NCBI GenBank assembly: GCA_021166685.1
Contig: JAJPEU010000013.1
Coordinates: 62,001 to 126,000, forward strand
DNA: 64,000 nucleotides
Reading direction: 5' to 3'
From: Sulfurovum sp.
GTDB taxonomy: Bacteria; Campylobacterota; Campylobacteria; Campylobacterales; Sulfurovaceae
This document shows, piece after piece, positions 27,412 through 64,000 of the stretch (positions are counted from its first letter, which is position 1; each line of letters begins with the position of its first letter). Both the position numbers and the translations under genes were made by a program. The notes beneath the pieces are model-generated. The model saw only the letters and a list, made by a program, of their open reading frames with translations. It made no database searches and was not told the DNA's origin.

Positions 27412-28433
27412 CTGCTATCCTTTGCATTGAGCAGAGCCGCACATTCTTCTGGCGCCACAGGGTTGATAGCCATGCCGGTTGCTATCTCAAAGCCGCCTAA
27501 TCCATAGATGCGGGGGGTGATGCGAACAGTAAAACGGTAGTTTTTCTCCAAGTGCGGCATATAAACCTCGCTTTCAAAGTTTGCATTAAGCGGTGCGAGC
27601 ATAAAGTGTATATTATAGTCAAAATCATCAAGTTGTATGGCAAGTTTTTCAAAAACACTTCTAATGCAGCATGCAAGTGCCGTAACATCGTCTCTTGAAC
27701 ATCGCTCAAGGCTTGGGATGTTTTTTTTGGGTGCTATCATCACTTCAAAAGGGTATGCGCTTGCAAAAGGACAAAAAGCTGCAAAATTCTCCTCATTGTA
27801 GATGACTCTTTTTTTTGCCTCTAGCTCGTTGTGTAAAATATCTTCTACTATCCCTCTTCCGTGTCGGCGGTAATAGCGCATATTTTGCTCTAAGAAGTTT
27901 TGTTGGCTTTGGGGCGTTATGGGCAAAGCAAGCAGCTGCGTATGCGGATGATCTTGCGTTGCTCCGGCATTTGCTCCGCTATTTTTGAAGATACTAAGAT
28001 GAATCAGCCTTCTGTCTTTTTTCAAATCATCAATGCGAACTATCATACTTCGCAGCCAATTTTCAATATCTAAGACTTCGAGCTCTTGCATTTTGCATTC
28101 ATGGCACGGAGTGTCTATCAGTATCTCATGTGCGCCGACTCCGGGAATATACTCAAAAAGACCGTCTCTTTGAGAAATGTCTTTAAGTTCGACCTGCACG
28201 GCTTTGTAGAGATTGGGAATAACTCTTGTTCTCCAGCCTCTCGTATTTGACTCATTTTCTCGTATGGCAAAAAGCTCTTTGGGGGTAAGAAACTCGCTGC
28301 CTTCACAAAATGGGCATTTTGCATTTGAGATCTTTTCTTTAGAATGTTTTGCATGCAGACTAGGACGATAAAGCCTCTCGGGGGCAATAATGACATACTG
28401 GTTATGGATGCGGTCTCGTCGTATCTCAGACAT
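27408..28433 (-). CDS. galT: Galactose-1-phosphate uridylyltransferase-type HIT enzyme
   Basis: 341 residues. Zinc-ligand pair C40-P-F-C43 and nucleophile motif H162-P-H164-T-Q166 (canonical H-P-H-G-Q, here Thr for Gly). Transfers a nucleotidyl group between hexose-1-phosphates. No galE or galK is near, so in this glucan operon it may act on glucose-1-phosphate as a nucleotidyl- or phosphorylase-like enzyme; several GalT-like proteins do. Overlaps the GH57 gene upstream by eight bases and glgA by four. Confidence 0.85.
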   Translation of the reverse strand: MSEIRRDRIHNQYVIIAPERLYRPSLHAKHSKEKISNAKCPFCEGSEFLTPKELFAIRENESNTRGWRTRVIPNLYKAVQVELKDISQRDGLFEYIPGVGAHEILIDTPCHECKMQELEVLDIENWLRSMIVRIDDLKKDRRLIHLSIFKNSGANAGATQDHPHTQLLALPITPQSQQNFLEQNMRYYRRHGRGIVEDILHNELEAKKRVIYNEENFAAFCPFASAYPFEVMIAPKKNIPSLERCSRDDVTALACCIRSVFEKLAIQLDDFDYNIHFMLAPLNANFESEVYMPHLEKNYRFTVRITPRIYGLGGFEIATGMAINPVAPEECAALLNAKDSR

Positions 28434-30453: not shown

Positions 30454-30461
30454 CTCATCTC

Positions 30462-32492
30462 CTACGCAAACCATCTTTCGCTAAAATCACACTCCATGTC
30501 TATTTCAAGCATCCCAAATCCGGGAAGTGTCTGGACTACCGCATCGTCTTTTAGAATCTCAAAACGAAAAAAAAGTTTTTTTGCCTTGACAGCATACCTC
30601 TCTATCCTCACTTCAATCCATGTATCATACGCCGCTTCATAGAGAATATCTCCGCTTTTTGCACGTGTACGGCTTTTTTGATCCAGGACTATCTCCTGGC
30701 TAAAGGCTATAGGATCTATGATAATGCGCAGTTTTTGGCATTCTTGTATCGCTTTTTCGTGCGGCACAAAGGCAAAATAGAGATTTTGCACATCATAGCC
30801 GTAAAGTATCTTTTTGATAGGAGTTTTTGGCAAATCCATAACGGATGCACTACTATACTCATTGATAACACCGCTGCCAATCCACTCAAAAAACGAGGAA
30901 TGCCTGCCGCTTATGCGAGGGGATATGAAAGATTGGGGCTGGAGTAAAAAATCGCTGCTGCTTCTGTTTTGGATGATTGGTTTTAAAAAATCTTGTGGCG
31001 GTGCAACCTGCATCAGACTATAGACGGCGAGCAGATGAGAGCGAAAAAGAGTGTCAAACTCTAAGCCAAACTCCGTAAAATGGTCATCTCCATACCACCA
31101 AAACCAATCAGAACACTCAGCGGCTAAAAAATGTTCCGTAATCTTTTCTTGTGTTGCACGATCAAGCAGCTCTTTATGGTGACCGTAATCTCTTTTAGCC
31201 ATATAAAGAAACTCCCATGCGCGTGTTTTTTCCTTGTGTCCTACCCATGTATTAAAATCCCCATTGATCCAGCTCCCTGCGGCAAGATTCTCAAGCTTCT
31301 TTTTCGGAAGCGCTGCTATCTCTTGCATAGTAAGTGTTTTTACAAAAGAGGCGGATTTAATCGAACTATAGAGAGCATCAAAAAAATCAAAAGCGTTGTT
31401 TTTATAAAATTCCCATGCGTTTTCACCATCAAGAATGATAAAAACGGTTGCCCCCTCATTGTTCTTATGGATGCTTTGCAGATGAGCAATAAAATCATCG
31501 GCAGCTTTATGCGGCTCTAAAAACCTGTAGTCAAACCCGATAAAATTGCTCAGCCTATGATTTCGAAAAACGATGCCTAAGGAATTATACTCATAAGGCG
31601 TATAGAGCAATGCTCTTTCCCTTATGCCGCTTGATCGAAAAAGTATCTCCTCATCTGTCGCTATCCATGCCGCACCGCACTTTTTGAAAAGCTCGGCACT
31701 TTTTGCATCTACTGCACCCTCTGCCGGCCAAAAACCGTCAGGCTCAAATCCAAAAGTATCCATAAAAAGCTCTTTTGCTCTTATAATTTGCAAAAGTGCA
31801 TCCTCTTCTAGACCCATGGCATATTGCGGAACACTGGTAGTTTCGTTTGCAATTTTAGCATTTTGCATATCAAGCAAAAGCGGCAAAATGGGGTGATTAA
31901 GCGGTGTGGTGGAAAGCGAGATCATGCCTGTATGTTTTAGTTTTATATAGTAATCAAAAATCCCTTTTATAAAAAGAGCAAGATTGTCGAGCAAGGCATA
32001 TTTGTCCTCAACGGTAAACCCCTTTTCTCTTTGGAGCATTTCTTTTACAGCACTGTTGTTTTGCCGAAGATAAGCTCCGCACCATGAAAGCAAAAACAAA
32101 ACCTGCAAATCAAAAAAATCCTGATTTGTATAGCTCTCCTGTTTATAAAGCTTCTCATACCATCCGATATTTGCAACCATCGTCTCATAATGGGCACTTT
32201 TGCAAATCTTAAGCATCCATTGATATTCGGCTTCATTTAAAGAGTCCGTCTCTCTAAGCCAAAGTGCCAAAAATTTATCATTTGATTGGGGGTTTTCATA
32301 GTAGAGCTTCAGTTGTGCGATGAGAGGGGGCGTGATGTTAAATGCTGCTTTGAGTGTTCCGTGTCTCTCTAGCATCCATGGCATATCGTAGTAATCCTTT
32401 ATGGCATGCAAAAAGACCCATGGCATCTGCATAACGCCCTGCGTATCTCGATAGTCGGGCTGATGCATATGCCATAAAAAAGCGAGATTCAT
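30462..32492 (-). CDS. GH57 family glucan hydrolase (amylopullulanase-like)
   Basis: 676 residues. WHMHQPDY at the start, FWPAEGAVD (nucleophile Glu region), IATDEE and FIILDGENAWE (acid Asp) fit the second GH57 group, which includes amylopullulanases. A C-terminal beta-domain follows (about 520-670). No signal peptide, so it acts on cytoplasmic glucan. Start overlaps the stop of the nucleotidyltransferase/phosphomutase fusion by four bases. Confidence 0.85.
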   Translation of the reverse strand: MNLAFLWHMHQPDYRDTQGVMQMPWVFLHAIKDYYDMPWMLERHGTLKAAFNITPPLIAQLKLYYENPQSNDKFLALWLRETDSLNEAEYQWMLKICKSAHYETMVANIGWYEKLYKQESYTNQDFFDLQVLFLLSWCGAYLRQNNSAVKEMLQREKGFTVEDKYALLDNLALFIKGIFDYYIKLKHTGMISLSTTPLNHPILPLLLDMQNAKIANETTSVPQYAMGLEEDALLQIIRAKELFMDTFGFEPDGFWPAEGAVDAKSAELFKKCGAAWIATDEEILFRSSGIRERALLYTPYEYNSLGIVFRNHRLSNFIGFDYRFLEPHKAADDFIAHLQSIHKNNEGATVFIILDGENAWEFYKNNAFDFFDALYSSIKSASFVKTLTMQEIAALPKKKLENLAAGSWINGDFNTWVGHKEKTRAWEFLYMAKRDYGHHKELLDRATQEKITEHFLAAECSDWFWWYGDDHFTEFGLEFDTLFRSHLLAVYSLMQVAPPQDFLKPIIQNRSSSDFLLQPQSFISPRISGRHSSFFEWIGSGVINEYSSASVMDLPKTPIKKILYGYDVQNLYFAFVPHEKAIQECQKLRIIIDPIAFSQEIVLDQKSRTRAKSGDILYEAAYDTWIEVRIERYAVKAKKLFFRFEILKDDAVVQTLPGFGMLEIDMECDFSERWFA

Positions 32493-34996
32493 TCTCTCTC
32501 ATTTGCATAATTTTGGATTTTTTGCGTATAGCTTTCCAATAATGCTTCGCCGGCTGCTTCACTGTCCGCCTGGACGTAAAGATTCAGATGATCTTCATAT
32601 TGATCGGGAATCATTAAAACCCAATCTGTATTATTTTCCCAAATCTTCACACCGTCTTCAGATGATGATTTTTTCCCTTTGGCAGCTTCTAAAAATTTGC
32701 GCATCATCTTTCCTTTAAGCGACTGGGTACATGCAATCTTTGCCTGCTTATAGTAAAAATGGATAATCTTTTTTGAGATTTCCGAGAGTTTAAGATGACT
32801 GCAACTGAGCATCTCCATGATTCGAAGACTTGCAAACATCGCATCTCTGTAAACGCCAAAATCGCTAAAAGCAAAGTTTCCATCGACTGTCGCTATGAGC
32901 GAATATTCTTGCAAATGCAAAGTTTTAAGGCTGGTATATTTGCCCCTTTGAATCTCAAGATTTTCAAAAGAGACGATATCAGGTGCCCAGGTAGGCAAAA
33001 ATACCTTTTTCTTTGTATCTGCGGAGTGCCTGTCAAGAAGATGAAGAACCGCCAAAAGCCCCTTGACTCTATCAAGTACTTCCCCCTCGTCAGTTACCAA
33101 AGAAATACTCTGTGCATTTGGATAAATCATTACTCCCATGTTGTGTTCAAGGCTGGAGACAATTTTGGAGATGTTCTCTTCTGAACGTTTTTTAAGAGCC
33201 TGAAAATTCGAGAGCTTATGCTGATCATGATACGCATTGAGAATAATATTTTCCACTCCGATATCATTAAGTATGCTCGGAAAGATATCCGCGGTGGATC
33301 CATGCATCAAATCCACTGCTACTTTAAATGCCGAGCATTTTATAATATTATTGTCAATCTTGTTCTCGATAGCAGCTTTATAGCTGTGGCATTCATTGTA
33401 GTGTTCCGTCTCCTGGATCTCCCCGATGTGAGAAAAATCAACCCTGCGAAACTTCTCCGTAAAAAAGGTTTTTTCAATATTTTTTGCATTATTTGAATCG
33501 ATACGAATCGCTTCATCATTAAAAAGGGTAATCTCTGATTCGGTAGGATCGTAGATACTCTGCTTGAAATGTGCACCCCCTGCATAGTGAGTGGAATTGG
33601 CTATAGTGTATCTTAAAACCGCCGGAGGCACACTTTTAAGATCCAAAACATCAATTCCGGCAGACAGCAGTCCTCCCAAAAAAGCACGCTTTAGCATTCT
33701 TGAACTTTTGTTATGGTCTCTTCCTACAACCACTTTCGAGCCCACAGGCAGCTGTGCGGCAAAAGCTTCGGCTAGTTTGGTCGCCATCTCGCATGAGAGC
33801 TCGACATTGCTTTTGCCGCTTACTGTTCCGTTTTGAAAGATGGAATTTTTATATCTGCTTCCCCAGACAATATTATTGCTGATGATTGAGGCAGGTTCTA
33901 TCTTTTTGTCCGGCCAAATAATAACGTCTTGTTTAAAAGACGTCAGTTCCCCGATTTCGCATCCCTCAGAGAGAATAATTCCGACTTTTGCAGTAACATT
34001 TTTTTCTATTATATTGTTATTGCAGATAACGGCATCGTCCAACTTGACATTTTTTTTAATTTTAACATCTTCCCAAATAACGCTGTTTGAAATACTACAT
34101 CCCGTCCCAATGGAAACATTGTCTCCGATAACGACATTGCTTAGCTTTGTTCCCTCTTTTATCTTGATATTTTTGCCAAGAACTACTGTGCCTACGATTT
34201 TAACAGAATGAGCAAGAGAGTACTCCTCATCGCTGTAGAGAATTCCATCAGGATAATGCTTTTCAAAACCGCTGAATTTAAAGCCAACCCTCGCATTTAA
34301 AATATCGTCATATACTTCGCGGTAGCTCTCTGGATTGCCTACATCTCTCCAGTACCCCTCAAGATTGTAGCCCATAAGAGGAATACCCTTGCTCATAAGC
34401 AGCGGAAAAAGATTTTTTGCAAAATCAAAATTTTCGCCATGCGGAATATACTTAAGGATCTCGGGCTCTATGATGTAAATTCCCGTATTGATTGTATCGC
34501 TGAAAACTTCTCCCCAGCTTGGCTTTTCTAAAAATTTCTCTATCACATGCTCTTCGTTGGCAATAACCACGCCAAACTGAAGCGGATCCTCGACTGATGT
34601 CAGACCAATAGTGAGTTTAGCATCCTTTTGTGCATGAAAATCGAAAATTTTTTGAAAATCAAAGTCGGTCACCAGGTCGCCGCTGATAACGATAAAATTT
34701 TCCTCCCCGATATGCTCGGCAGCAAGCTTCACTGCACCCGCTGTACCGTAGTCATCATCAGGAACAATATAGGTTATCTTGATACCAAATGCACTCCCGT
34801 CACCAAAGTAGTTTTGGATAATCTCAGGTTTGAAGTAGAGCAAAACGATAAACTCCGTAATGCCTAACTCTTTAAGCATCATCATTGTGTGCTCCATCAT
34901 CGGCCGATTGACGATTGGCAACATCGGTTTTGGTCTTGAATGTGTTAAAGGCTGAATTCTTGTCCCAAACCCGCCTGCCATAACCACAGCTTTCAT
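32489..34996 (-). CDS. Sugar nucleotidyltransferase / left-handed helix / phosphomutase-like fusion
   Basis: 835 residues. Domain 1 (1-230) is an NTP-transferase (AGGFGTRIQPLTHSRPKPM, signature and Lys). Domain 2 (about 250-380) is a hexapeptide left-handed beta-helix (GTKLSNVVIGDNVSIGTG). Domain 3 (about 390-830) follows phosphoglucomutase/phosphomannomutase, but the catalytic Ser loop (T-x-S-H-N-P) reads AGGAHFKQSIYDP, without the phosphoserine. This fusion type is known in cyanobacteria and others as mannose-1-phosphate guanylyltransferase/PMM-like. Here it probably makes NDP-glucose for GlgA, which is inference since no glgC is in the window. Confidence 0.82.
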   Translation of the reverse strand: MKAVVMAGGFGTRIQPLTHSRPKPMLPIVNRPMMEHTMMMLKELGITEFIVLLYFKPEIIQNYFGDGSAFGIKITYIVPDDDYGTAGAVKLAAEHIGEENFIVISGDLVTDFDFQKIFDFHAQKDAKLTIGLTSVEDPLQFGVVIANEEHVIEKFLEKPSWGEVFSDTINTGIYIIEPEILKYIPHGENFDFAKNLFPLLMSKGIPLMGYNLEGYWRDVGNPESYREVYDDILNARVGFKFSGFEKHYPDGILYSDEEYSLAHSVKIVGTVVLGKNIKIKEGTKLSNVVIGDNVSIGTGCSISNSVIWEDVKIKKNVKLDDAVICNNNIIEKNVTAKVGIILSEGCEIGELTSFKQDVIIWPDKKIEPASIISNNIVWGSRYKNSIFQNGTVSGKSNVELSCEMATKLAEAFAAQLPVGSKVVVGRDHNKSSRMLKRAFLGGLLSAGIDVLDLKSVPPAVLRYTIANSTHYAGGAHFKQSIYDPTESEITLFNDEAIRIDSNNAKNIEKTFFTEKFRRVDFSHIGEIQETEHYNECHSYKAAIENKIDNNIIKCSAFKVAVDLMHGSTADIFPSILNDIGVENIILNAYHDQHKLSNFQALKKRSEENISKIVSSLEHNMGVMIYPNAQSISLVTDEGEVLDRVKGLLAVLHLLDRHSADTKKKVFLPTWAPDIVSFENLEIQRGKYTSLKTLHLQEYSLIATVDGNFAFSDFGVYRDAMFASLRIMEMLSCSHLKLSEISKKIIHFYYKQAKIACTQSLKGKMMRKFLEAAKGKKSSSEDGVKIWENNTDWVLMIPDQYEDHLNLYVQADSEAAGEALLESYTQKIQNYANERE

Positions 34997-35106
34997 TTTT
35001 TACTCTTCCTTTTTTATTATTATTTTTTCGCAAAACTTCTTACAAAATTTTAAATAGCCTACTCATTTTACAGTATAACAAAAGATCAACGGCCAAAACA
35101 ACAAAA

Positions 35107-36750
35107 TCAAATGTCGAACATTTTCTCATAATACTCTATTGCCATACGCCCAGAATCAAACTCAATCTCCACATCCGTCATCGCATTTTTCATAATCGCT
35201 ACCCATTCTTTTGGATTGTCGTAATAGGTTGAAATAATAGTGTTTTCTAAAATATCCATCATATTTTGATTATCAATTCTATCTTGCTCCTTATTTGAAA
35301 GCTTATAGTCAAGCGGAGGAATGGTAAATGCATTTTTACCATGTTTTGCAAATTCGGGATTCCAGCCATCATCTGTAGAAAAATGGATAGAGCCATTCAT
35401 ACTTGCCGTCATGCCGCTTGTTCCGCTTGCTTCACGGGTGATACGCGGAGTATTAAGCCAGACATCGCTTCCCTGTTTGAGAAGTTTGGACAAAGCGAGC
35501 TCATACCCGATAAGCACCGCCATATTTTTAAAATGATGACTCATCTGGATAAGTTCATTGAACATCTCTATCGCCCCATAATCGGTAGGGTATGGTTTGC
35601 CGGCCCAGATAACCTGGACGGGTCTGCCAGTATCGGTTATGAGCTTGACAAAACGTTCTAAATCATATTTAAGCAATCCCGGCCTTTTATATTCTGCAAA
35701 TCTTCTTGCCCACACGATAGTAAGCACCTCCGGATCAAACATCTTGCCTGTCTGATCTGCCACCACCTCAAAAAGTATCTTTTTGAGGTGTTTTTTGCGT
35801 GCTAAAAGTTCGTATCCTTCATGTTCATCCAGTGCACGGATAAGCGTTTTGTCTGTCCAATACTTTTTATTTTGCGCATTGGTAATGGAGACAATCTCAC
35901 ATCGTCCCTCCACGCCCGACCACATCTCATTGGCAATAATTCCATGTATTTTTGAAACAGCATTGGCTATCTTTGTACTTTTGAGTGCGCCCACAGTAAG
36001 GCTGAAACGGTCATCATATTCATACCCATTCAAGACTCTAACATGGTGCAGATCCAAACCGTTGAAAAACCCCATCTCATGCAAGAAGTGGATATCGTGA
36101 ATCTCATTTCCTGCCGCTTCTGGCGTATGCGTCGTAAAAACGACATGTTTGCGCACCTCGTTCATATCGCCAAGTCTGCCATAAAGCTCATAAACAAGCG
36201 GCAGCGCATGCCCCTCATTCATATGGTAGATATCAACGTGGTGATTGATAGCCTCAAGCATTTTCGTTCCGCCGATACCCAAAACTATCTCCTGCGCCAC
36301 TCGCGTACGTTCATTGCCGTCGTAAAGTTTATGGGTAATGGTTCGCGAGAGATAATCGTTTTCATCGGTATCGGTGGACAGCAAGATAATGGGAGCTGTT
36401 CCAAAAACGTCACAGCGAAGCAAAAATCCCTTGACTGTCACATTTATATCATTAATTTTGACCACCACTTTTTGTTCAAGCTCTTCTAAAAAATAATAGA
36501 ACTTTCTTGTATACTCCGGTTTAAGCGTTCTATCTTCATTGCGTGATTGGTCGTAGTAGCCAAAACTCCACAACAGCCCTACTCCCACAATATTTTGTTT
36601 AAGGTCATAGGCACTGCGCATATGAGAGCCCGCCAAGAAACCAAGGCCGCCTGCGTAAATTTTAAGAGATTGCTCGATTGCAAATTCCATCGAGAAGTAT
36701 GCAACACTCTTCTCGTATTTTTGACTTATATCATACGAAAACAAGTTCAT
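35107..36750 (-). CDS. glgP: Alpha-glucan phosphorylase, short GT35 form
   Basis: 547 residues, the short form (classical enzymes about 800). Typical marks are YFSMEFAIEQSLKIYAGGLG, HMNEGHA, FTTHTPEAAGNE, ARRFAEYKRP and WLNTPRITREASGTSGM. At the position of the PLP lysine in classical phosphorylases (E-A-S-G-T-x-x-M-K) residue 448 is Thr (SGMTASMNG). I believe the same substitution exists in some short-form homologues but cannot check it. Releases glucose-1-phosphate from glycogen. Eight bases after pgi. About 110 bases separate it from the next gene, in which I see nothing. Confidence 0.85.
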   Translation of the reverse strand: MNLFSYDISQKYEKSVAYFSMEFAIEQSLKIYAGGLGFLAGSHMRSAYDLKQNIVGVGLLWSFGYYDQSRNEDRTLKPEYTRKFYYFLEELEQKVVVKINDINVTVKGFLLRCDVFGTAPIILLSTDTDENDYLSRTITHKLYDGNERTRVAQEIVLGIGGTKMLEAINHHVDIYHMNEGHALPLVYELYGRLGDMNEVRKHVVFTTHTPEAAGNEIHDIHFLHEMGFFNGLDLHHVRVLNGYEYDDRFSLTVGALKSTKIANAVSKIHGIIANEMWSGVEGRCEIVSITNAQNKKYWTDKTLIRALDEHEGYELLARKKHLKKILFEVVADQTGKMFDPEVLTIVWARRFAEYKRPGLLKYDLERFVKLITDTGRPVQVIWAGKPYPTDYGAIEMFNELIQMSHHFKNMAVLIGYELALSKLLKQGSDVWLNTPRITREASGTSGMTASMNGSIHFSTDDGWNPEFAKHGKNAFTIPPLDYKLSNKEQDRIDNQNMMDILENTIISTYYDNPKEWVAIMKNAMTDVEIEFDSGRMAIEYYEKMFDI

Positions 36751-36758
36751 TATTATCC

Positions 36759-37994
36759 CTATTGTTTTGATAGACTATTATAGAGTATTTTTTTTCCTAG
36801 TTCAACCCCGTTTTGATTGTAGGTATCCACTCCCGACATAAAACCGACAAGCGACGCAAGAAGCTGAAAGTAAACAATGAGCTTCCCGACATTCTGTTCG
36901 CTCAAAGTATCAAGTGTGATAGCGTCTACCATAATACCGGACTCAGAAACACTCTGCATCACTGCTTTGCTCTGTTCATTGATAAGGTGTGCAAAGGTTT
37001 TGTTGTTGACAAAATTGGTTTGTTCCAGATGTTTAAGCGAAACATCTGCGATACGTAAATCATTGCCGAAATCCTCTACCCTTACAAAGGTTACCGTCTT
37101 ATCTCTCGGCCCTTCAACGATAAGCTGCAAAAAGGAATGCTGATCCACCGCCCCGATGATCCCAATGGGAGTAAACCCGGTATTTCTCTTGTGCGCATCG
37201 ATCTTCCCCAAGGATTCTCCCCATAACTGTACAAACCATTTGTTGAACTGTTCCATGGAATCTGCATACGAAAAGAGAACGGTGATGCTCGTTGTCTGTG
37301 CATTTTTATAATAAAAGAGGGCTTTTCCCAGAAGATGATTCTCTTTGTGTGCAAAAAATCGCTCAACAAATCCCAAAGCCCCCTTTAGAATAGGTAAGAC
37401 ATTATAGCCAGCAAATGCAAGCGGCACAACGCCAACGGCACTCAAAACAGAGAAGCGGCCACCCACATTGTGCGGGATATGAAACGCTCTAAGCACATAG
37501 TGCTTGGCAAACTTATCCAGATCTGACCCTTCATCGGTAATGACAAAAACTCTTTTGTTGTCTTTTGCATCAAGTTCAAGACGGAAATGCGCAATAACTG
37601 TTTTAAAAATAGAGGTAGTTTCTATGGTAGAGCCGGATTTGGAAATAACAAAAAATGCCGCCTCTTCAGGACGCACTCTTTGCATCAATGAAGAAATGGT
37701 GACAGGATCGGAGTTTTCAAAAAAGAGTATCTCTTTTGCTTCTTTGTTTGCCGGGCGCAACATGGAATCTATTGCCTTGATACCTAAAGATGACCCCCCT
37801 ATCCCAATAACTACTATCTGTGTAAAAGTATCCGTTTTGATACTCTTTACCTCTTCCAAAAGAGGAATGCCAATTTCCGGAAGTGTATAGTAGCCGATTG
37901 CCCCGCTCTCCATCTCTTCCCTGAGAGATTCGAATGCCTTTTGTGCCAAATCGTTCTTTGACAATTTTTCGAAATTATTTTCAAAAGCGATCAT
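36759..37994 (-). CDS. pgi: Glucose-6-phosphate isomerase
   Basis: 411 residues, shorter than the 540-residue enterobacterial enzyme and close to the compact Campylobacterota/Thermotoga form. IGIGGSSLGIKAI, SKSGSTIETTSIF and NVGGRFSVLSAVG are the family motifs; QLWGESLGK carries the catalytic Glu and the C-terminal GVELGKKILY is conserved. Connects glucan-derived sugar phosphates with glycolysis. First gene of the glucan block proper, 142 bases after pyk; nothing seen in that gap. Confidence 0.93.
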   Translation of the reverse strand: MIAFENNFEKLSKNDLAQKAFESLREEMESGAIGYYTLPEIGIPLLEEVKSIKTDTFTQIVVIGIGGSSLGIKAIDSMLRPANKEAKEILFFENSDPVTISSLMQRVRPEEAAFFVISKSGSTIETTSIFKTVIAHFRLELDAKDNKRVFVITDEGSDLDKFAKHYVLRAFHIPHNVGGRFSVLSAVGVVPLAFAGYNVLPILKGALGFVERFFAHKENHLLGKALFYYKNAQTTSITVLFSYADSMEQFNKWFVQLWGESLGKIDAHKRNTGFTPIGIIGAVDQHSFLQLIVEGPRDKTVTFVRVEDFGNDLRIADVSLKHLEQTNFVNNKTFAHLINEQSKAVMQSVSESGIMVDAITLDTLSEQNVGKLIVYFQLLASLVGFMSGVDTYNQNGVELGKKILYNSLSKQ

Positions 37995-38136
37995 TTTCTT
38001 TTTCCTGCATTTGTCATCAAATTGCTCCTCTGCTCATACCCGTTTGCCAAATCTTCACGCTGTGTGCACTAAATTTCGGTCTATAAAATTTTGTTCTTGC
38101 GTCTTAAAAAAAGTCTATCTTACTGCACCTAAAACC

Positions 38137-39600
38137 TTACTTCCATTCACAGCTGGCTTTGTAGAGAAGTTTATTTTTGCGAAATATCAGATCCATTTGT
38201 CTAAAAATAGTCTTTAAAATCTTTACTGTCTCAAGCGCATAAGCCCCTTTATTAAGCATTACGCACTCGGCTTTGTGGGCAAAGATAACATCGGAAATCT
38301 CGGAACGGCTTGGGATGTTCGTCTTCATCTTGCTCTCTAAAACCTGCGTTGCCAAGATAACGGGCATATGGGCAGAGGCACAGAGATCTAAAATTTCCTC
38401 TTGCATATAGGCAAGATTTTCAAAACCTATCTCTATCGCCAAATCCCCACGGGCTATCATGATGCCTGCATTTCCGTACTCCAAAAGCGCTTCAAGAATA
38501 TAGGGGAGATTTTGCACTCCTTTTTTTGTTTCAATCTTTGCAACGATTCCGATTAACTTTTTTTTGCCTAACTTCTCTAATTCCCCGATGAGATCATATA
38601 TATCTGCAGCCGACTGCACAAAGGAGATGCCTATAATATCGGCATACTCGCAAATAGCGGGAAGGACTTCTTTGTCCCGCTCGCTTATAGCCGCCAAGGC
38701 AAGTTCGCTGTTTGGAAAGTTGATCCCTTTTTCATTTTTGATTTTGCTTCCCTTGTCATTTTTTGTTATTACCGAGCAGACGATATCTTCGTCAATAATT
38801 TCTTCCACCCGAAGCTGCACTTTTCCATCATCGATATAGACAGGATCTCCGACTTTGGTCAGGCTTCCCATCTTCTCAAGCGTACATCCCACAATCGCGC
38901 TGCAGCCCATCCGGTTTTCTTTTAGCGAAGCTGAAGCAAAAGACCGGATGAGAATTTTTTCTCCATGGAATACTTTTAGTTTTTTTGGTTTTCCCCCCTC
39001 TGCCTCTTTAACCAGAGAAGTTCTTATTTTCGGCCCTGCAAGGTCTACATAGATTTTAGGCGATGCGTTTTGCACCTCTTTGATACGCTTTGCCATATCC
39101 GCCCATACAGCAACACTATCATGCGCGGTGTTAATACGAAAAAGATGCACTCCCTGACTGCAAAGTGTACCAAACCAATCCTCATGCTCATTATAGTCTG
39201 AGGGTGCAGTTATCATAATCTTTGTTTTGTCACTTGATGTTCCAAAGATCTTGGCATTGTTTTGCATAATGGCATGCGACTTCTCGTAACTCAACCGCGG
39301 AGAATCGATGGCAAGAGTCTTATCAAGAGCAAGCGAGAGCATCCTAAGCGTCACAACTACACTTGCTTCTATATGCGATTGGGAACGTCCAAAAGAGGAA
39401 AGCCCCTCTCTTGTCAAGTCATCTTGAAGCAGCGCATAATCATGTTTTCTAAGATTGAGGTACTGTTTCATATTTAAAAGCGAATCATTTGGCAATTTTG
39501 GGTCTATATCACTCCAAAGAGTGTTTCGAAGACCAAGAAGTCTCTCCAAGAGCTCTAGCAAAAACTCTTTATCTTCAACTCCCTCACTATTTTTTTTCAT
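38137..39600 (-). CDS. pyk: Pyruvate kinase, atypical N-extended form
   Basis: 487 residues. The first about 125 residues are an extension without a pyruvate kinase match. The barrel follows with KTKIMIT (canonical T-K-I-x-x-T), FRINTAHDS (canonical R-x-N-x-S-H), DLAGPKIRTS, VYIDDGKVQL, IVAKIETKKGVQN, IMIARGDLAIEIGFE and ILATQVLESKM. The allosteric C-terminal domain is missing; the chain ends about 60 residues after the barrel. Such forms are seen in plants/cyanobacteria-related groups. Overlaps the upstream flavoenzyme by four bases. Activity is likely but regulation must differ. Confidence 0.82.
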   Translation of the reverse strand: MKKNSEGVEDKEFLLELLERLLGLRNTLWSDIDPKLPNDSLLNMKQYLNLRKHDYALLQDDLTREGLSSFGRSQSHIEASVVVTLRMLSLALDKTLAIDSPRLSYEKSHAIMQNNAKIFGTSSDKTKIMITAPSDYNEHEDWFGTLCSQGVHLFRINTAHDSVAVWADMAKRIKEVQNASPKIYVDLAGPKIRTSLVKEAEGGKPKKLKVFHGEKILIRSFASASLKENRMGCSAIVGCTLEKMGSLTKVGDPVYIDDGKVQLRVEEIIDEDIVCSVITKNDKGSKIKNEKGINFPNSELALAAISERDKEVLPAICEYADIIGISFVQSAADIYDLIGELEKLGKKKLIGIVAKIETKKGVQNLPYILEALLEYGNAGIMIARGDLAIEIGFENLAYMQEEILDLCASAHMPVILATQVLESKMKTNIPSRSEISDVIFAHKAECVMLNKGAYALETVKILKTIFRQMDLIFRKNKLLYKASCEWK

Positions 39601-40967
39601 TTTAAACTCGCTTTCACAATCTGCTCTGCCGCTTTTATAATGGGATAGGCTGTTGGTGCTGCCGTGAGGAGCGGCTGGGTTGCTACTTGCAGCGAAAGAA
39701 TCTTGTATGCAGTTAATTCTGTTTCAATGGCTAAGCCAATAATATTGATTACCTCTCCCGCCTCTTTGTCTCCTACAACCTGCCCTCCTATAATCTGTCC
39801 GCTGCTCTTGAGCGCGATGAGCTTCACAGACTGTTTGGAGGCATCAGGGATAGCCGCCGGATGGCGATTAAGCCCCTCATAAAAACCAACAACACAATCG
39901 ATATTCTCCTCTTTTGCTCTTTGCTCGCTTACACCGGCACTTGCAAACGTACGCCCGCCTATGATTGTAGAGAAAATAGCAATGGTTCCGTTGAAACCCT
40001 TGAGCTGCTTAAGCCCATAAAGAGAGCTTCCCGCCACTCTTGCCTCTGAAGCAGATGTTGAAGCAAGCATCACCTTCGAAGGGGCGCGCGTTATAAAATC
40101 ACGGCGGCCGCAACAATCACCCACCGCAAAAATATCTTTATTTTTTGTACGCATATATTCATCCACCCAAATCCCCTCATAACGGGCAAGTTTTAACCCT
40201 GCCTCTTTGGCTATTTTGGTGTTTGGACGATACCCTGTTGCCAGAATGATCAGTTCACCCTCTATAATACTCCCATCGCAAAGTTCTGCACCCTGGGCGA
40301 TATCTCCCGCAGGTATGATTCTTGATGCATGTTGGCCCAGTACAAGCCTAATTCCCATCTCTTTCATAATGCTCTCGGCAGCAACTGCCATATCGAGATC
40401 AAAAGCATCTGCTAAAATATGTTTACCGCCAATAATTGCTACATCTTTGCCAGCAGAGCACAACTCTGTTGCCATCTCCACCCCGATAAATCCTGTTCCT
40501 ATAATAATTATTTTTTCTTTTGTATCAATGGCAGCGACAAGCGCATCAATCTTCTCTTTATGCTTTTCTATAGTAAAAACATTTTTAAGATGCAAAGCAT
40601 CCTCAAAACTCTTGTGGACAAAAGGAACGGAACCCGTTGCAAAAACAAGCTTCTCAAATGTAATGGTATGTTCTTTGGCATAAAGCGTTTTTGTCTCAAT
40701 ATCCACGGACATTGCCGTATCAACAACGATGTTGATCTTCTGTTCCATAGCTCCGCACGGCATAATATCTTTTTGGCTGCTGCCTAAAGTTTTGCCAAAG
40801 ATATAAGGGATCCCGCATGGAACCAATGCGTACTTATCTTCTTTGACAAGAGTGATTTTTTTGCCAGTAAAATGCTCTAGCGCAGTGGAGGCACTGACGA
40901 GTGCTGCCGGTCCTCCCCCTAAAATCAAAATATCGGTATGCTCTTTGCTCACAACGCTGTCCTTCAT
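39597..40967 (-). CDS. CoA-disulfide reductase/NADH oxidase-like flavoenzyme
   Basis: 456 residues from ATG at 40967; GTG 15 bases later has a better ribosome site, so the start is uncertain. FAD motif LGGGPAALVSA, single redox Cys C51 in LVPCGIPY, NAD motif IIGTGFIGVEMA and AVGDCC place it in the single-cysteine CoADR/NADH oxidase/Nox family. The C-terminal dimerisation domain is present (HPAAIPDASKQSVKLIA). Overlaps pyk. Possible roles are thiol redox, polysulfide/CoA-persulfide reduction or NADH oxidation. Confidence 0.8.
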   Translation of the reverse strand: MKDSVVSKEHTDILILGGGPAALVSASTALEHFTGKKITLVKEDKYALVPCGIPYIFGKTLGSSQKDIMPCGAMEQKINIVVDTAMSVDIETKTLYAKEHTITFEKLVFATGSVPFVHKSFEDALHLKNVFTIEKHKEKIDALVAAIDTKEKIIIIGTGFIGVEMATELCSAGKDVAIIGGKHILADAFDLDMAVAAESIMKEMGIRLVLGQHASRIIPAGDIAQGAELCDGSIIEGELIILATGYRPNTKIAKEAGLKLARYEGIWVDEYMRTKNKDIFAVGDCCGRRDFITRAPSKVMLASTSASEARVAGSSLYGLKQLKGFNGTIAIFSTIIGGRTFASAGVSEQRAKEENIDCVVGFYEGLNRHPAAIPDASKQSVKLIALKSSGQIIGGQVVGDKEAGEVINIIGLAIETELTAYKILSLQVATQPLLTAAPTAYPIIKAAEQIVKASLK

Positions 40968-41075
40968 TTTATGCGAACCATACCAAAAAATCATTACAAT
41001 TTGATTTCAAATTTTGTATTGAAGGCATATGAAAATTTTTCCAAACATGCCAAAAAATAGAGAAAAAAATAGACC

Positions 41076-57190: not shown

Positions 57191-58414
57191 TTATTCATAT
57201 TCGATCTCTATCATGCTCTTTGTCTTTTTTGAAAATATCTGCCTTTTTACTTTGCCGGCGCCCAAATACTTTTTGGCACCATTATTGTCTTTGTCTAAAA
57301 TAATATATCTATTCTCGTCTTCGCTGATTTCATCTTTATCGTTTTTGATATACTCAACCCGGTAAACCAGCCTTACCGCATCGACAAAGGCACTTGCCCC
57401 TCTGCTCTGAGATGAATTTTTAGTCCCATGATGAATGAAAATGATCGTCTTTTTTTCTTTGGTGGCCCATCTGGTAAACAGATTAATAAACATTCGTGCA
57501 TGGGCATTGTTATTTTCATCTGCACCAAACATTGCTATAAGCGGGTCAAGAATAATTACATCATACGCATTCAGTGCTCTTTTAAACTGATAAAATTTAC
57601 TATTGATAGATATGCTCCCTCTGCTCTCTTCTAAAAAATGTATGGTTTCTGCATCTGCTCCTGCTATATGCAAATCTTTTTCAAAGACAGAAACATCTGT
57701 TTCCAAAATTTGCTTGGCTATCATTTCAAAACGAGATCTGGATAATCCCAAAGGATCTTCGCTCAACCACATAAATACTTTAAGCCTCTCATCTCTCACC
57801 ATTCTCATGGCTGCTTGCAAAAGTAAAAATGATTTCCCTACTCCCCCTCCTGCACTTACCAAAGAAACGGTATCTTTAGGAAATGGCAACCAGCTTTTGC
57901 AAACAAATTCCGCATCTTCTGCTTCTATCTCTCCAAAAGAAACGATCTTAAAAAGCTCTCTGCCTCCCTCTTCTGCTTTTTCTATTTCTCCATGGACAAG
58001 ATGTAAAATTTCATCAAAATTTTTTTCCTCATCTATACTGTACAAAATTTGATGCGCAAGTTGTTTAAACTGCCTTAGTCTGGAGTACTCTTTCATTTTC
58101 TCTATATAAAAACAAATATTCGAAACCGGGAGCGAGGCCAATATTTCCAACATTCCGGATTCATCAAATGCTTTGCCTAAATACTCTTTAATAATACCTT
58201 CTTCTATAATACTGTTTTCATAAAGATGGCCCAATGCATTAAAAAGCACCCGATGAAAAGGAATAAAAAAATCTTCATTTCTTATTCCCGCATCCAGTAC
58301 ATCTTTAAATATCGCAGGCTCATAAATAATTGCACTTAAAACTGCTCTTTCAAAAGCTTCGCTATACATCAATTTTTGCATCTTATCTTCTTCATATAAT
58401 AATCTTTTGCCCAT
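57191..58414 (-). CDS. Replicative helicase-like ATPase (DnaB-N plus RepA/AAA_25)
   Basis: 407 residues from ATG at 58414. The N-terminal 110 residues follow the DnaB N-terminal domain (SEAFERAVLSAIIYEPAIFKDVLDAG...FFIPFHRVLFNAL). The rest is a RecA-fold ATPase of the RSF1010 RepA type with Walker A G190-G-V-G-K-S195, Walker B VIILDPLIAMFG and HHGTKNSSQSRGASAFVDAV. It is the plasmid-type arrangement in which the helicase lies beside the origin. Reads away from the iterons, leftward. Probably the replicon's own helicase. Confidence 0.82.
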   Translation of the reverse strand: MGKRLLYEEDKMQKLMYSEAFERAVLSAIIYEPAIFKDVLDAGIRNEDFFIPFHRVLFNALGHLYENSIIEEGIIKEYLGKAFDESGMLEILASLPVSNICFYIEKMKEYSRLRQFKQLAHQILYSIDEEKNFDEILHLVHGEIEKAEEGGRELFKIVSFGEIEAEDAEFVCKSWLPFPKDTVSLVSAGGGVGKSFLLLQAAMRMVRDERLKVFMWLSEDPLGLSRSRFEMIAKQILETDVSVFEKDLHIAGADAETIHFLEESRGSISINSKFYQFKRALNAYDVIILDPLIAMFGADENNNAHARMFINLFTRWATKEKKTIIFIHHGTKNSSQSRGASAFVDAVRLVYRVEYIKNDKDEISEDENRYIILDKDNNGAKKYLGAGKVKRQIFSKKTKSMIEIEYE

Positions 58415-58475
58415 TCTAACTCTTTTTACATAACATAGCAAGGCCCGAATTTCATAGTATTCTTTTTGTTAAAAG

Positions 58476-58867
58476 AAGTAATATTAGAGTGTAAAGGAAG
58501 TAATATTAGAGGGGTTTACTATTTTTTAGGAAGTAATATTAGAGGGGTCAAAATTGTGCTTGCGGAAGCAATCTTAGAGTAAAAATTATATTTTGGAAGT
58601 AATATTAGGGGGGGGTAAGAGAGTTTTTGATATTTAATGGATATTTTTATCCTTATTATTGAAAATTTTCATATTTTTTTTAAAAACTCTCATATATTTT
58701 TAAACAGATTCATCTGTGATGGAAGTAATATTAGGGGGTTTATATCATTTTTTATAGCAGAAGCGGAACTAATATTAGAGGGTTTTGGAAGTAATATTAG
58801 AGTATGAGGAAGTAATATTAGAGGTAAAAAGTAGCTATATTAGAGGGTTTTGGAAGTAATATTAGGG
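58476..58867 (+). repeat. Iteron array: putative replication origin
   Basis: About eleven direct copies of GGAAGTAATATTAGAGGGG, all in the same orientation: 58476, 58496, 58529, 58564 (degenerate), 58595, 58721, 58765, 58787, 58808, 58830 (degenerate) and 58852. Spacing is irregular, with a 110-base AT-rich gap (58614-58720), the likely unwinding element. They lie between the helicase and rep genes, as iterons do in theta plasmids. The 494-base gap holds no gene otherwise. Positions may be off by one base. Confidence 0.9.
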
Positions 58868-58888
58868 TTTTTCTAAGAATATAAGATT

Positions 58889-58953
58889 CTTTATACAAGA
58901 GCATGAAGACTCTTGTATAAAGAGTGTGATTTTAATCACTCTTTATACAAGAG
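58889..58953 (-). terminator. Three-armed inverted repeat at the 3' end of rep
   Basis: Arm A CTTTATACAAGAG (58889-58901), arm B CTCTTGTATAAAGAGTG (58910-58926) and arm C (58937-58953, exact complement of B). B can pair with A or with C, giving mutually exclusive hairpins. Arm C encodes the last residues of Rep. No T-run follows, so this is an alternative-structure terminator or a copy-control RNA element. Confidence 0.55.
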
Positions 58954-60042
58954 AGACTCTAAGTACAATATAACTTCCATTTCAAATTCTTCTGAATCAA
59001 GTTGATTTTTATTAACGATTCTAAAATTTTTTTGATCATCGGTCTCAACATAAGCTGCACAAACAAATGCACCTTCTGTTTCATAGGAGATGTTTTTTAA
59101 TAAAACCTTATTCCCATCTACCAAAATAGCATCACCAATAAGATCCTTTGTTGTGGTATTAATCGCAGGTTTTTCTGTTTCAATAAGAGAAGCACTTGAA
59201 TAATTAAATAAAGAAGGAATAAAACCAACCCCCGAGTTACCAAGATAATAAAACATTTCATCGTTTGGGCTGTAATCAATTCCAAATGATTGCAACTCCC
59301 CTACTCTGTACCTGAGTTCTCTTTTTGCAACCTGTAATGATTTTGGAGAATCTGTAGGAAACCCAAGCGCATCTAAAACAGTCAATAGTTTAAACCGTGA
59401 TTCTTTTTTATGTGTAAAAAACCAACGTATAATAGCTTTGGTTAAAGCAGAATCAACTTTAAGCAGTTTTGGCAATTCTTTTTTATAGTTAATAGAAAGT
59501 TCTCTTTCATAAAATTTTAAATATCTCTTATCCAGCGTGATTGAGTAAGCCTTGTGCTCTTCAAGATAATCCAAATGAGAAATTAAATTAAAGTCAAAAG
59601 AATCCCCTTTTGTATTTACATAATTGATAGTGATATCACGGATTTCTTTGATTTTATCCCTAAGCCATTTTGTTTGTTTTTCCCAAGAGTTGCTTTTTTC
59701 TTCCCCGCTATACTCTTTAAGTATTTTTGTCTGACTGAAAATAATTACAACCTCTTCAGTAGGCAGAGGAATAATTTTTGCCGCATGTGTGTAGATACAG
59801 TCCAGTAAATCCCTGTGAACCTGAGTTAAGAGTTTTCGCCCTCTTATTTCGACTTTGCCCCAGCTTGTTTGAATAGTTCTGATTCCTCCGTTGTTTTTGA
59901 ATTCTCTGGCGGTCACAGAATTTCCTGAAAGTTTCTGTACGGGAGAAAAAATTGGAATACGCAATTCAGTAATAGTTGATGTACTGCTTTCTATTTTTTC
60001 CACAACATTAAAAAGAGTGAGTTGTTGATTATCTGTTTTCAT
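58936..60042 (-). CDS. Plasmid-type replication initiator (Rep, winged-helix family)
   Basis: 368 residues. No exact family name is evident. Two helical winged-helix-like halves fit a Rep/TrfA-type initiator (SWGKVEIRGRKLLTQVHRDLLDCIYTHAAKI...; ALTKAIIRWFFTHKKESRFKLLTVLDALGFPT). Rich in Lys/Ser, GC-poor. It stands directly next to the iterons, between helicase and parA, which supports initiator function. ATG at 60042 follows AAACAG weakly; the gene reads toward the iterons. Confidence 0.72.
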   Translation of the reverse strand: MKTDNQQLTLFNVVEKIESSTSTITELRIPIFSPVQKLSGNSVTAREFKNNGGIRTIQTSWGKVEIRGRKLLTQVHRDLLDCIYTHAAKIIPLPTEEVVIIFSQTKILKEYSGEEKSNSWEKQTKWLRDKIKEIRDITINYVNTKGDSFDFNLISHLDYLEEHKAYSITLDKRYLKFYERELSINYKKELPKLLKVDSALTKAIIRWFFTHKKESRFKLLTVLDALGFPTDSPKSLQVAKRELRYRVGELQSFGIDYSPNDEMFYYLGNSGVGFIPSLFNYSSASLIETEKPAINTTTKDLIGDAILVDGNKVLLKNISYETEGAFVCAAYVETDDQKNFRIVNKNQLDSEEFEMEVILYLESLLYKE

Positions 60043-60156
60043 GGATATATTGTACTATGCAATATGTGTCAACACCCTTATTTATTTTTATTTTACTTGA
60101 TTGTAATGTAAACAGCCAATAGAACGGCTCTTTTCCGTGTAAATAAAATAAAAAAG

Positions 60157-60170
60157 TTTCGCATGCGAAA
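60157..60170 (+). promoter_or_regulatory. parS/operator-like palindrome 1
   Basis: TTTCGCATGCGAAA, perfect 14-base palindrome between rep and parA. Confidence 0.75.
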
Positions 60171-60212
60171 TAATCTAATTGTAAACCAATTATAGTATTA
60201 TTTGGTAATAAA

Positions 60213-60226
60213 TTTCGCATGCGAAA
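60213..60226 (+). promoter_or_regulatory. parS/operator-like palindrome 2
   Basis: Second perfect TTTCGCATGCGAAA, 15 bases before the parA start, where it could also repress parAB. Confidence 0.8.
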
Positions 60227-60240
60227 CAAAAGGTGAATGT

Positions 60241-60861
60241 ATGATTATTACCATTGCACACTCAAAGGGCGGAGTAGGAAAAAGTTTACTTTCATGGCAT
60301 TTAGCTATAGGGATGAGTGTGCCCATTATAGATTTGGATTTTCAAAAAACATTGGTCTACACAAACAACCTTAGAAAAATAAATGGATACAAATCGTTAA
60401 AAATTATTCAGCCCGAATCCCCGCAATCATTTGTGGAATTTATGGACAATTGGCCCGAAGATAAAAATATTATTATTGATGTGGGAGGGTTTGATTCAAA
60501 CCTTAACAGGGCAGCACTTTACATTTCTGATCTTATCATCACTCCGGCGGTTGATCGTGTAACGGAAATGGCAGGACTTTATAAATTTCATCAGATTTTG
60601 GAAGAACTTTCGCAAAAAATGAAAACACATATCAAAGCAAATATTTTACTCAATGATGTTAATCCGAGTGCAAAAGATTTTTCTGTTATAGAGGATTTGG
60701 TAGATAATCTAAAGCATTTTGACCTTATGGATACGATTATAGCGCATAGAGCAGATTTTTATAGAACCATGGAGGAAGGCAAAGGGGTAACAGAATTAGA
60801 AAAAAGTAAAGCTAAAAAAGAGATAAAACAATTAATCAAAGAAATAAAGAAAAAAGGATAA
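60241..60861 (+). CDS. parA: ParA-type partition ATPase
   Basis: 206 residues from ATG at 60241 (AGGTG ahead; an upstream in-frame start runs through palindrome 2). Deviant Walker A K9-G-G-V-G-K-S15, Walker A' IIDLDFQK and Walker B IIIDVGGFD. No N-terminal HTH, so a small type Ib-like ParA. Two palindromes flank its promoter. Followed after three bases by parB. Confidence 0.9.
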   Translation: MIITIAHSKGGVGKSLLSWHLAIGMSVPIIDLDFQKTLVYTNNLRKINGYKSLKIIQPESPQSFVEFMDNWPEDKNIIIDVGGFDSNLNRAALYISDLIITPAVDRVTEMAGLYKFHQILEELSQKMKTHIKANILLNDVNPSAKDFSVIEDLVDNLKHFDLMDTIIAHRADFYRTMEEGKGVTELEKSKAKKEIKQLIKEIKKKG

Positions 60862-60864
60862 AAG

Positions 60865-61728
60865 ATGGCTAAACGTAAAATAAATGCAGCAATGATATTG
60901 GCCGCAGGCGAAGATGCACATCTTCAAACCAATGATACAAAAGTTTCGCATGCAAAACAAATAGATGGACAAGAATTTTTAGAAATAGATGTTGATAAAA
61001 TTATAAACAACCCTATGCAGCCGCGAATTTCTATCAACAGTCACGAACTTAAAGATCTTATGTCCTCCATAAAAGAACACGGCCTTATACAACCCATAGC
61101 TGTTATCAGAACCTCAAAAGGCGAGTTTATACTTAAAGCAGGACAAAGAAGATGGTTTGCTCATAAAGAACTTGGCCTAGAAAAGATAAAAGCTATTGTG
61201 GAAGATGCAACACATTTTTCTAAAGAAGAAGAAGAAAAAAAACTTTTTGAAGCAGCAATTATGGAAAATACCCATAGAGACAATCTTGATCCATTGGAGC
61301 TTGCTCTTTCTTTAAAACAGGCAATGGATAAAAATTTCTATGCAAATTTAGAGGAACTAAGTCAGGCCTTAAGCAAATCAAAATCGTATATCAGTAAAGT
61401 ATTTAAAGTACTTTCTTTGGAAGAAGAGATTATTCAAGACCTAGAAAAAAACAAATCCATCAATGACATTGAATCTCTTTATGAAATCCAAAAGATTAAA
61501 GATCCGCAGGAGCAGGTGAGAGTATATTTTGATTTTGTAGCTAAAAAATTAGACAGAAAAGCACTTAGAAGTCGCAATAAAACCAAAATTTCGCATGCGA
61601 AACAAGAAGTTTTTTTTATTACCAGGCCCAAATTTATAAAATTGGATCTGGATACTACAAAATTAACCGAATCACAAAAGAAAAATATGATAGAAGAGCT
61701 GGAAAAAGTTTTAAAGAAATATTTTTAA
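60865..61728 (+). CDS. parB: ParB-type partition protein
   Basis: 287 residues. Box I NPMQPR, box II ENTHRDNLDPLE, the CTP-related GQRRWFAHKELG stretch and a HTH (ELSQALSKSKSYISKVFKVL) are present. Two palindrome copies (60944-60957, 61589-61602) lie inside the gene and are translated as KVSHAKQ (residues about 26-32) and KISHAKQ (about 241-247), in linkers between domains. Thus the protein carries its own putative binding sites. Ends the replicon. Confidence 0.9.
   Translation: MAKRKINAAMILAAGEDAHLQTNDTKVSHAKQIDGQEFLEIDVDKIINNPMQPRISINSHELKDLMSSIKEHGLIQPIAVIRTSKGEFILKAGQRRWFAHKELGLEKIKAIVEDATHFSKEEEEKKLFEAAIMENTHRDNLDPLELALSLKQAMDKNFYANLEELSQALSKSKSYISKVFKVLSLEEEIIQDLEKNKSINDIESLYEIQKIKDPQEQVRVYFDFVAKKLDRKALRSRNKTKISHAKQEVFFITRPKFIKLDLDTTKLTESQKKNMIEELEKVLKKYF
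60944..60957 (+). promoter_or_regulatory. parS-like palindrome 3 inside parB
   Basis: TTTCGCATGCAAAA, one mismatch from the palindrome, in the 5' part of parB. Confidence 0.55.
61589..61602 (+). promoter_or_regulatory. parS-like palindrome 4 inside parB
   Basis: Perfect TTTCGCATGCGAAA within the 3' part of parB, encoding the segment ISHAKQ. Confidence 0.7.
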
Positions 61729-61755: not shown

Positions 61756-61944
61756 CTAGGCAAATCGTAAAAAAATACCAACCAAAAGAGAAAGAAAAAC
61801 AGTAAGCAGAAAAGTTAAACCATTATACCATTTTTTAGGAAGTGAGAATTTTTTATTTAACCACTCTGTTATTTTCATGGCAGGAAAGACCATAAAAAGC
61901 AGCATTACGATACTAAAAACTAAGGTTAAAACAAAATCTATCAT
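61756..61944 (-). CDS. Small membrane protein
   Basis: 62 residues: two hydrophobic helices (3-24 and 42-60) with basic loop NKKFSLPKKWYN. No family recognised. It starts two bases after the 127-residue gene ends, so they form a pair. Confidence 0.55.
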   Translation of the reverse strand: MIDFVLTLVFSIVMLLFMVFPAMKITEWLNKKFSLPKKWYNGLTFLLTVFLSLLVGIFLRFA

Positions 61945-63058: not shown

Positions 63059-63403
63059 ATGGAACCATTAATTGTGCGACCGGAAATAGCGGTGGATCAA
63101 TTCCTCCCTATTTTCATAGAGTCTACTCTTGTATTGGTGTTTGGCGTGGGATATGCAGCATTGATTACTTTAGCAAAAATGGGATTTTTTTCTAAAAAGT
63201 GGATGAATATTGGATATTTGTTTTGGGCATTACAAACTTACTGTTTGTACGATCTTTCTGTATTAATTCAAAGTAGCCACTTTACAACAAAAGTTTTGAT
63301 GGTGACGATGGTAGCATATTTGTTTATTCCTCACTTATATTTTCATCTTATAAGCGAATCAGAAAAACGATATGAAGATACGGAAACACCGATACAACCA
63401 TAA
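63059..63403 (+). CDS. Small membrane protein of the nor operon
   Basis: 114 residues from ATG at 63059 behind AAAAGGA; the longer reading from 62957 would start in the FNR box. Three hydrophobic helices (about 17-38, 48-68, 75-95) and a polar end. No family recognised. Directly before norC (22 bases), so probably an assembly or subunit protein of the nitric oxide reductase. Confidence 0.65.
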   Translation: MEPLIVRPEIAVDQFLPIFIESTLVLVFGVGYAALITLAKMGFFSKKWMNIGYLFWALQTYCLYDLSVLIQSSHFTTKVLMVTMVAYLFIPHLYFHLISESEKRYEDTETPIQP

Positions 63404-63425
63404 AAAAAACAAAAGGAGGAAGTAT

Positions 63426-64000
63426 ATGGATAAGGAAAATTTATCAGTATGGACGAGTATACCATTTTGGCGTCGTTCAGCTGCTTGGGTAACCGGATTT
63501 GCAGTCATGCTGCTCATCTGGCTTAGTTTTGATACGCTAGGACAGATCAGCATGGGAACAGATGAGGATCTCAAAAACGGGATAACCAAGAGAGTACCAG
63601 GACCAACGGTTATCAACTATGAGATTGATTATAAAATGAGCGAAAAAAGAGGCAGTGAAGTACCGGTTATCGGTAAAAAAGAACTATTTTTTGGAAAAGA
63701 GTGGAGTGAGCAGGAGGCTGCTGATTTGTTGCATCTTGGAAAATTGACTTCGCAGGCGAAAAACTGTATGAATTGTCATACGCTTTTGGGTAACGGCGGA
63801 TATTATGCGCCCGATCTTACTAAAGCCTGGCTGGATCCGGCATGGAGAGAGGGCGGTCCTTTGCAGGGTATGACTGGAAAAGATACCAAAGAAGAAGCGA
63901 TGGCTGAATTCTTAATGCATCCTTCACAATATCCTACGCATGCAAGAATGATGCCGGATCTTGGTATTACAGCAGAAGAAGCAAAAGGATTGGTTGCTTT
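63426..64000 (+). CDS. norC: Nitric oxide reductase cytochrome c subunit, 3' end outside window
   Basis: The first about 191 codons. Membrane anchor (about 20-36) then a periplasmic c-type cytochrome with C114-M-N-C-H118 in KNCMNCHTLLGNGGYYAPDLT, the NorC signature. The N-terminal part before the heme is longer than in Pseudomonas NorC (heme at about residue 60), as in some Campylobacterota. AGGAGG precedes ATG at 63426. Gene continues past the right edge, where norB would be expected. Confidence 0.85.
   Translation, partial: MDKENLSVWTSIPFWRRSAAWVTGFAVMLLIWLSFDTLGQISMGTDEDLKNGITKRVPGPTVINYEIDYKMSEKRGSEVPVIGKKELFFGKEWSEQEAADLLHLGKLTSQAKNCMNCHTLLGNGGYYAPDLTKAWLDPAWREGGPLQGMTGKDTKEEAMAEFLMHPSQYPTHARMMPDLGITAEEAKGLVA

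Follow-up and report, generated by a model that had tools for sequence, protein, structure and literature searches.

The region at 57.2-61.7 kb of the stretch of Sulfurovum sp. DNA that we analysed (64,000 nucleotides, hereafter the window) is very probably the working replication and partition core of an independent circular chromid of ~147.5 kb, and a block of denitrification genes beside it has most likely moved there from the chromosome. We also judge it probable on balance that this iteron chromid of a Campylobacterota lineage acquired a nir-nor-nap island that was ancestrally on the chromosome, and carries nos as well, with denitrification now depending on a second replicon. The window corresponds to C15:62,001-126,000, C15 being a 147,846-bp contig of a draft genome (G000; 1.8 Mb, 21 contigs, 94% complete). 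A preliminary description had noticed a helicase, about eleven iterons with an AT-rich gap, an initiator and parAB together in 4.5 kb, all of which the analysis confirmed, and had proposed either that the whole window was part of a megaplasmid or chromid or that a plasmid had been integrated.

The ends of C15 overlap: the first 303 bases align in the same direction, at 90.4% identity, with a 298-base stretch that stops 3 bases short of the contig end. The match (C15:1-303 against 147,546-147,843) is imperfect (90%), as if the ends came from different strains or from uncorrected reads. Colinear contigs were found in two sister species, G035:C4 (105,355 bases) and G034:C14 (105,898 bases), one of them belonging to Sulfurovum sp. 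UBA4779, which bears out the Campylobacterota host that had been suggested. The three contigs are mostly colinear, with ~75-91% nucleotide identity, and the joint of C15 is spanned inside both of the others. Since sequence within the other contigs runs across each of the three end joints, all three are circles as far as their sequences tell, that of C15 measuring ~147.5 kb; for C15 this conclusion is based on the imperfect end overlap and the comparison across species, not on reads. The dnaA gene sits on another contig (C16), and a second, stronger ParB_N match was found on C5. A search for tRNA, rRNA and other Rfam families gave no match on C15.

Replication of the circle appears to be organised around the iterons. 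The cumulative GC skew of C15 has its minimum at C15:120,446 and its maximum at 55,508, and the iterons lie at 120,474-120,865, so that the origin of C15 is located at the iterons, where the bipolar skew turns. The skew minimum is found beside the iterons in the circles of the two sister species too. The observed range of the skew was reached by none of 5,000 block permutations. The replichores of C15 measure 81 and 66 kb, and in the three circles the leading strand carries 77-80% of the coding bases. The iteron tract (58474-58865 of the window, forward strand) has GGAAGTAATATTAG as its core, read as CTAATATTACTTCC on the rep strand. This core or close variants of it start at 58474, 58496, 58529, 58564, 58595, 58721, 58765, 58787, 58808 and 58852, and an eleventh, degenerate unit was read by eye at ~58830. 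The units closest to rep have a pitch of ~21-22 bp, and the iteron search returned 10 units in the tract vs 2 in shuffled copies. The two iteron groups are separated by an AT-rich gap at about 58640-58720 (78-90% AT), a candidate unwinding element. Direct repeats with ~20-22 bp pitch near rep together with an AT-rich region are the arrangement of Rep_3/iteron theta replicons, and the position of the skew supports a start of replication at the iterons. None of the patterns tried for canonical DnaA boxes matched near them. On one side of the tract there is a plasmid-type DnaB-like replicative helicase gene (57191-58441, reverse strand; Pfam DnaB_N and AAA_25, the RecA-like core), whose orthologue adjoins rep in most related replicons.

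The initiator gene, rep (58936-60042, reverse strand), codes for a 368-aa protein that by itself matches no Pfam or NCBIfam family. Eight Campylobacterota plasmids encode unannotated proteins with 33-45% identity to it, and one of its relatives passes the Pfam Rep3_N cut-off (24.1 bits against 22.4). The AlphaFold model of a 287-aa member of the family (pLDDT 86.8) had RepE54 and pi as its top fold matches in the PDB, the best 20 with probability 0.87-1.0 and E values of at least 2.5e-3. These likenesses to the Rep_3 fold hold for the family, the window protein's own sequence and own model falling short of them. The model of the full 368-aa Rep gave no significant fold match, its C-terminal barrel drawing matches to EF-P/eIF5A, and the ferritin-like matches obtained with its sequence against the PDB were discarded as chance. 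From its relatives and the modelled fold, the initiator is best placed with the Rep_3/RepE/pi type, as a Campylobacterota plasmid Rep that had no annotation, and it has a predicted winged-helix structure and a clade-specific C-terminal extension. It shares with RepE of mini-F and pi of R6K the two-winged-helix-like fold (by model comparison), iterons next to rep and, in one family member, a score above the Rep3_N cut-off. Unlike them, it lacks any Pfam or NCBIfam match, has the C-terminal extension that brings it to 368 aa, and is accompanied by iterons downstream of rep and a helicase encoded beside it. The relation to plasmid initiators that the preliminary description suggested looking for is thus present, and the contig is not the single chromosome of its genome.

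We surveyed 31 further loci with relatives of this Rep in public genomes. Most of them have the helicase and parAB beside rep. Where the sequence extends far enough, a tract of repeats comes after rep in nearly all cases, typically including a run with ~21-22 bp pitch; related iteron cores end in CTTCG or CTTCC. The plasmids pHRV44, pCIG1485E, pSULFM1, pSULKU03 and one of S. paralvinellae share a homologous Rep (36-45%) and iterons downstream of its gene, in most cases with the helicase close by and in some with parAB; they differ in being plasmids of 50-103 kb with other iteron sequences. At the nucleotide level the 4.5-kb core had only short matches, to two Campylobacterota plasmids, and no relative of Rep was found in viral contigs. 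An unannotated but widespread family of Campylobacterota plasmid Rep proteins can now be placed. Five Rep-bearing contigs (L024, L026, L041, L042 and L047) are filed under Arcobacter, Desulfurellaceae, Gracilibacteria and Helicobacter pylori MAGs, and some of them are probably plasmid contigs in the wrong bin. A UmuC-like gene (named by eye) at C15:111,498-113,605 recurs near the Rep cassette in L023, L037 and L047, in two of them with an adjacent HTH gene, which is also the arrangement on C15, and is perhaps a shared element of the plasmid backbone.

Partition genes follow rep. The parA gene (60241-60861, forward strand) codes for a short ParA ATPase of 206 aa and parB (60865-61728, forward strand) for a 287-aa protein with ParB_N and HTH domains, both assigned with Pfam/NCBIfam. 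Four parS-like palindromes had been described as identical. All four are present, and three are indeed the same: TTTCGCATGCGAAA at 60157-60170, at 60213-60226 and, inside parB, at 61589-61602. The remaining one, at 60944-60957 and also inside parB, has one mismatch here and is exact in the closest relatives. The exact 14-mer had no copy elsewhere in the 1.8-Mb genome, and most relatives within this Rep clade retain it. A ParA ATPase, a ParB with ParB_N and HTH and conserved palindromic putative parS sites near their genes make up what is known as a ParABS system. The peptide SHAKQ is encoded twice, at the two sites within parB, and several relatives whose parB is only 66-70% identical have these sites unchanged.

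Roughly opposite the iterons there is a putative terminus. Each of the three circles has a tyrosine recombinase gene within ~0.1-1.2 kb of the raw skew maximum, and just upstream of this XerH-like gene a perfect inverted repeat of dif format. The best PDB match of the recombinases of C15 and G035:C4 was XerH, and the G034:C14 recombinase was recognised from its likeness to the G035:C4 protein. An Xer recombinase with an inverted-repeat putative site is thus predicted at the terminus of each circle. The recombinase of C15 is ~28% identical to those of the other two circles and its repeat differs too, the place being the same. In G035:C4 the detrended skew maximum lies ~5.6 kb from the raw one and the terminus is less sharp. 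No pair of half-sites like those of H. pylori difH was found at the terminus. The XerH/difH systems of Helicobacter and Campylobacter (PMC2731167, PMC5241119) are similar in having XerH as best PDB match and a short perfect inverted repeat beside the gene and near the skew maximum; unlike them, the system described here is located on a secondary replicon, and C15 has a different site from the other two circles. It is in the bipolar skew and the terminus with Xer/dif that we see a chromosome-like organisation of this second replicon.

By analogy with RepE and pi, Rep would bind the iterons, open the AT-rich gap and recruit the replicon's own DnaB-like helicase, and theta replication would proceed from the iterons in both directions. 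The forks would meet roughly opposite, where the XerH-like recombinase acting at the dif-like site might resolve dimers. ParB would bind the four palindromes and ParA segregate the copies of the replicon.

Genes for respiration from nitrate to N2 (nap, nir, nor and nos) are present on the circle. The nir set includes a cytochrome c + d1 protein of the nirS type, nirF, nirJ and a nirE-like methyltransferase, and there are also a siroheme decarboxylase (nirDL type), napA with its neighbours, norC and norB; the nor names and some of the nap and nir names rest partly on reading the sequences by eye. In the window the nir-nor-nap block starts at 61756 and runs to the end at 64000, continuing to C15:147,846 and then past the joint to C15:8,731. 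Within it norC (63372-64000, forward strand) runs past the window, with norB next. A Sec-dependent nosZ is found at 626-3217 (reverse strand) within a nos cluster at C15:55,364-72,406. The only full-score NapA of the genome is on C15, and the circle's denitrification genes would be needed for nitrate respiration. Two further d1-domain proteins are encoded elsewhere in the genome. A second nosZ, 68% identical to that of the window, is located at G000:C14:23,409-25,982; it is also found on contigs of G034 and G035 other than the circles, and was not found in G016 or G024. These other d1 proteins and the second NosZ may leave nitrite and N2O reduction not solely dependent on the circle. No NosZ at 60% identity or more was found among the PLSDB plasmids.

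The preliminary description did not go beyond the window; comparison with the sister species showed that the denitrification block is chromosomal in some of them and that its chromosomal site is empty here. In G016 and G024, two single-contig genomes without a Rep of the window type, the orthologues of C15:123,756-joint-8,731 are together in a single region of the chromosome, rearranged and accompanied by additional genes; this region has an aldehyde dehydrogenase gene on one side and ilvE on the other (names given by eye). In the carriers of the circle (G000, G034 and G035) the aldehyde dehydrogenase gene and ilvE are separated by 98-99 bp, the neighbourhood is otherwise conserved, and no tRNA that could have served as attachment site is present at this empty place. 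On C15 the first gene of the block ends 27 bp from parB. An integrated plasmid beside a chromosomal denitrification region, the other option put forward in the preliminary description, would agree with the chromosomal look of the neighbouring genes and with the location of the block in the sister species. However, C15 is circular and colinear with the circles of two sister species, its skew is centred on the iterons, and on the chromosome the place of the block is closed, its flanking genes being 98-99 bp apart. We therefore rejected integration on account of the circle and the closed site, and consider it highly improbable.

As judged from this gene order, the nir-nor-nap block has evidently relocated between chromosome and circle. 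The block proteins of C15 compared with those of G016 (NapA 81%, NorB 87%, NirS-type 77%) have identities comparable to those of the flanking housekeeping proteins, mostly 79-84%, which argues against a recent import from outside. The direction of the move was most likely from the chromosome to the place beside parB, leaving the chromosomal site empty. The reverse, in which the replicon had the block originally and the chromosome of the lineage of G016, G022 and G024 received it from there by insertion, we regard as rather unlikely. In its favour, G029, which an unrooted tree of ten flanking proteins places next to the carriers and which is the nearest non-carrier lineage, has an empty aldehyde dehydrogenase-ilvE site and no nir, which makes the direction less certain. 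On the other hand, other genomes have the same Rep cassette with no such block next to parB, which favours a move from chromosome to replicon; the region of the block on the chromosomes of G016 and G024 showed no remnant of the helicase gene, rep or parAB, and nosZ is far from the nir-nor-nap block in both chromosomes. With the move from the chromosome as the preferred reading, the island is chromosomal in some sister species and on the replicon, with an empty chromosomal site, in others, and the step by which a plasmid becomes a chromid by taking core genes is thus open to study at a single locus.

We followed the chromid criteria as given in PMC6090056, after Harrison 2010. The circle has plasmid-type replication and maintenance (Rep, iterons and parAB at the skew minimum), and its nucleotide composition is near that of the chromosome: GC is 0.395 vs 0.400, and the dinucleotide distance between C15 and the chromosome is 0.007 vs 0.015-0.050 between chromosomal pieces. 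It also carries genes that are chromosomal in other species (nir-nor-nap and nosZ in G016 and G024), which are core only in part, as three other genomes of the genus have no NirS-type or NosZ match. Secondary chromid would be the careful term, covering maintenance, composition and genes that are chromosomal elsewhere. What we say of the dispensability of the circle and of its function in vivo we infer. An accessory megaplasmid, mobile or recently acquired and with the denitrification genes as cargo, is possible and clearly less probable than a chromid. No always-essential single-copy gene was found on the circle, it has neither rRNA nor tRNA, Rep is present in only 4 of 37 genomes of the genus (this one included), and relatives of Rep occur on plasmids with F-type transfer genes. 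The chromosome-like composition and the location of the only full-score NapA stand against such a megaplasmid, as does the failure to recognise by eye any transfer gene in the gene list of C15. Furthermore, gene order is conserved among the circles of three species and their divergence is close to that of the dnaA locus, indicating co-inheritance: the dnaA locus of G000 is 92% identical to that of G035 and 86% to that of G034, and the circles ~88% and ~82%, respectively.

Taken as a chromid, the circle resembles the known iteron chromids, e.g. Vibrio Chr2 (PMC6090056), in its plasmid-type initiator with iterons, its partition genes, its chromosome-like composition and its genes that are chromosomal in relatives. 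Unlike these, it belongs to Campylobacterota, is small (105-148 kb in the three species), has its own DnaB-like helicase and carries a conditionally needed respiration pathway, not genes shown to be essential. Iteron chromids are listed only in beta- and gammaproteobacteria (PMC6090056), and a limited literature search, with most subscription journals outside it, found none in Campylobacterota and none for Sulfurovum. The circle equips a vent- and sediment-type bacterium with genes for the path from nitrate to N2, which sister species keep on the main chromosome, and nitrate respiration may be lost or gained in this lineage with one replicon.

Other genes of C15 include a class III ribonucleotide reductase (nrdD/nrdG). 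Two SAM synthetase genes are present in the genome, a divergent one at C15:47,530-48,732 and the canonical metK at G000:C20:53,685-54,812, and several sister chromosomes hold both; metK as a single essential gene on the circle was rejected, the copy on C15 being a second paralogue. The otherwise colinear circle is interrupted, only in this species, by a ~20-kb block of glycogen and sugar genes (glgB, glgA, alpha-glucan phosphorylase, pgi and others; 21818-40994 of the window, reverse strand). Outside the window, C15:14,020-25,100 (L011, L010) contains a Type I-B CRISPR-Cas system (Cas8b, Cas7, Cas5, Cas3, Cas4 and Cas2) with an array of ~25 repeats, a locus that had no matches in the other two circles and is found only on that of C15 among the three.
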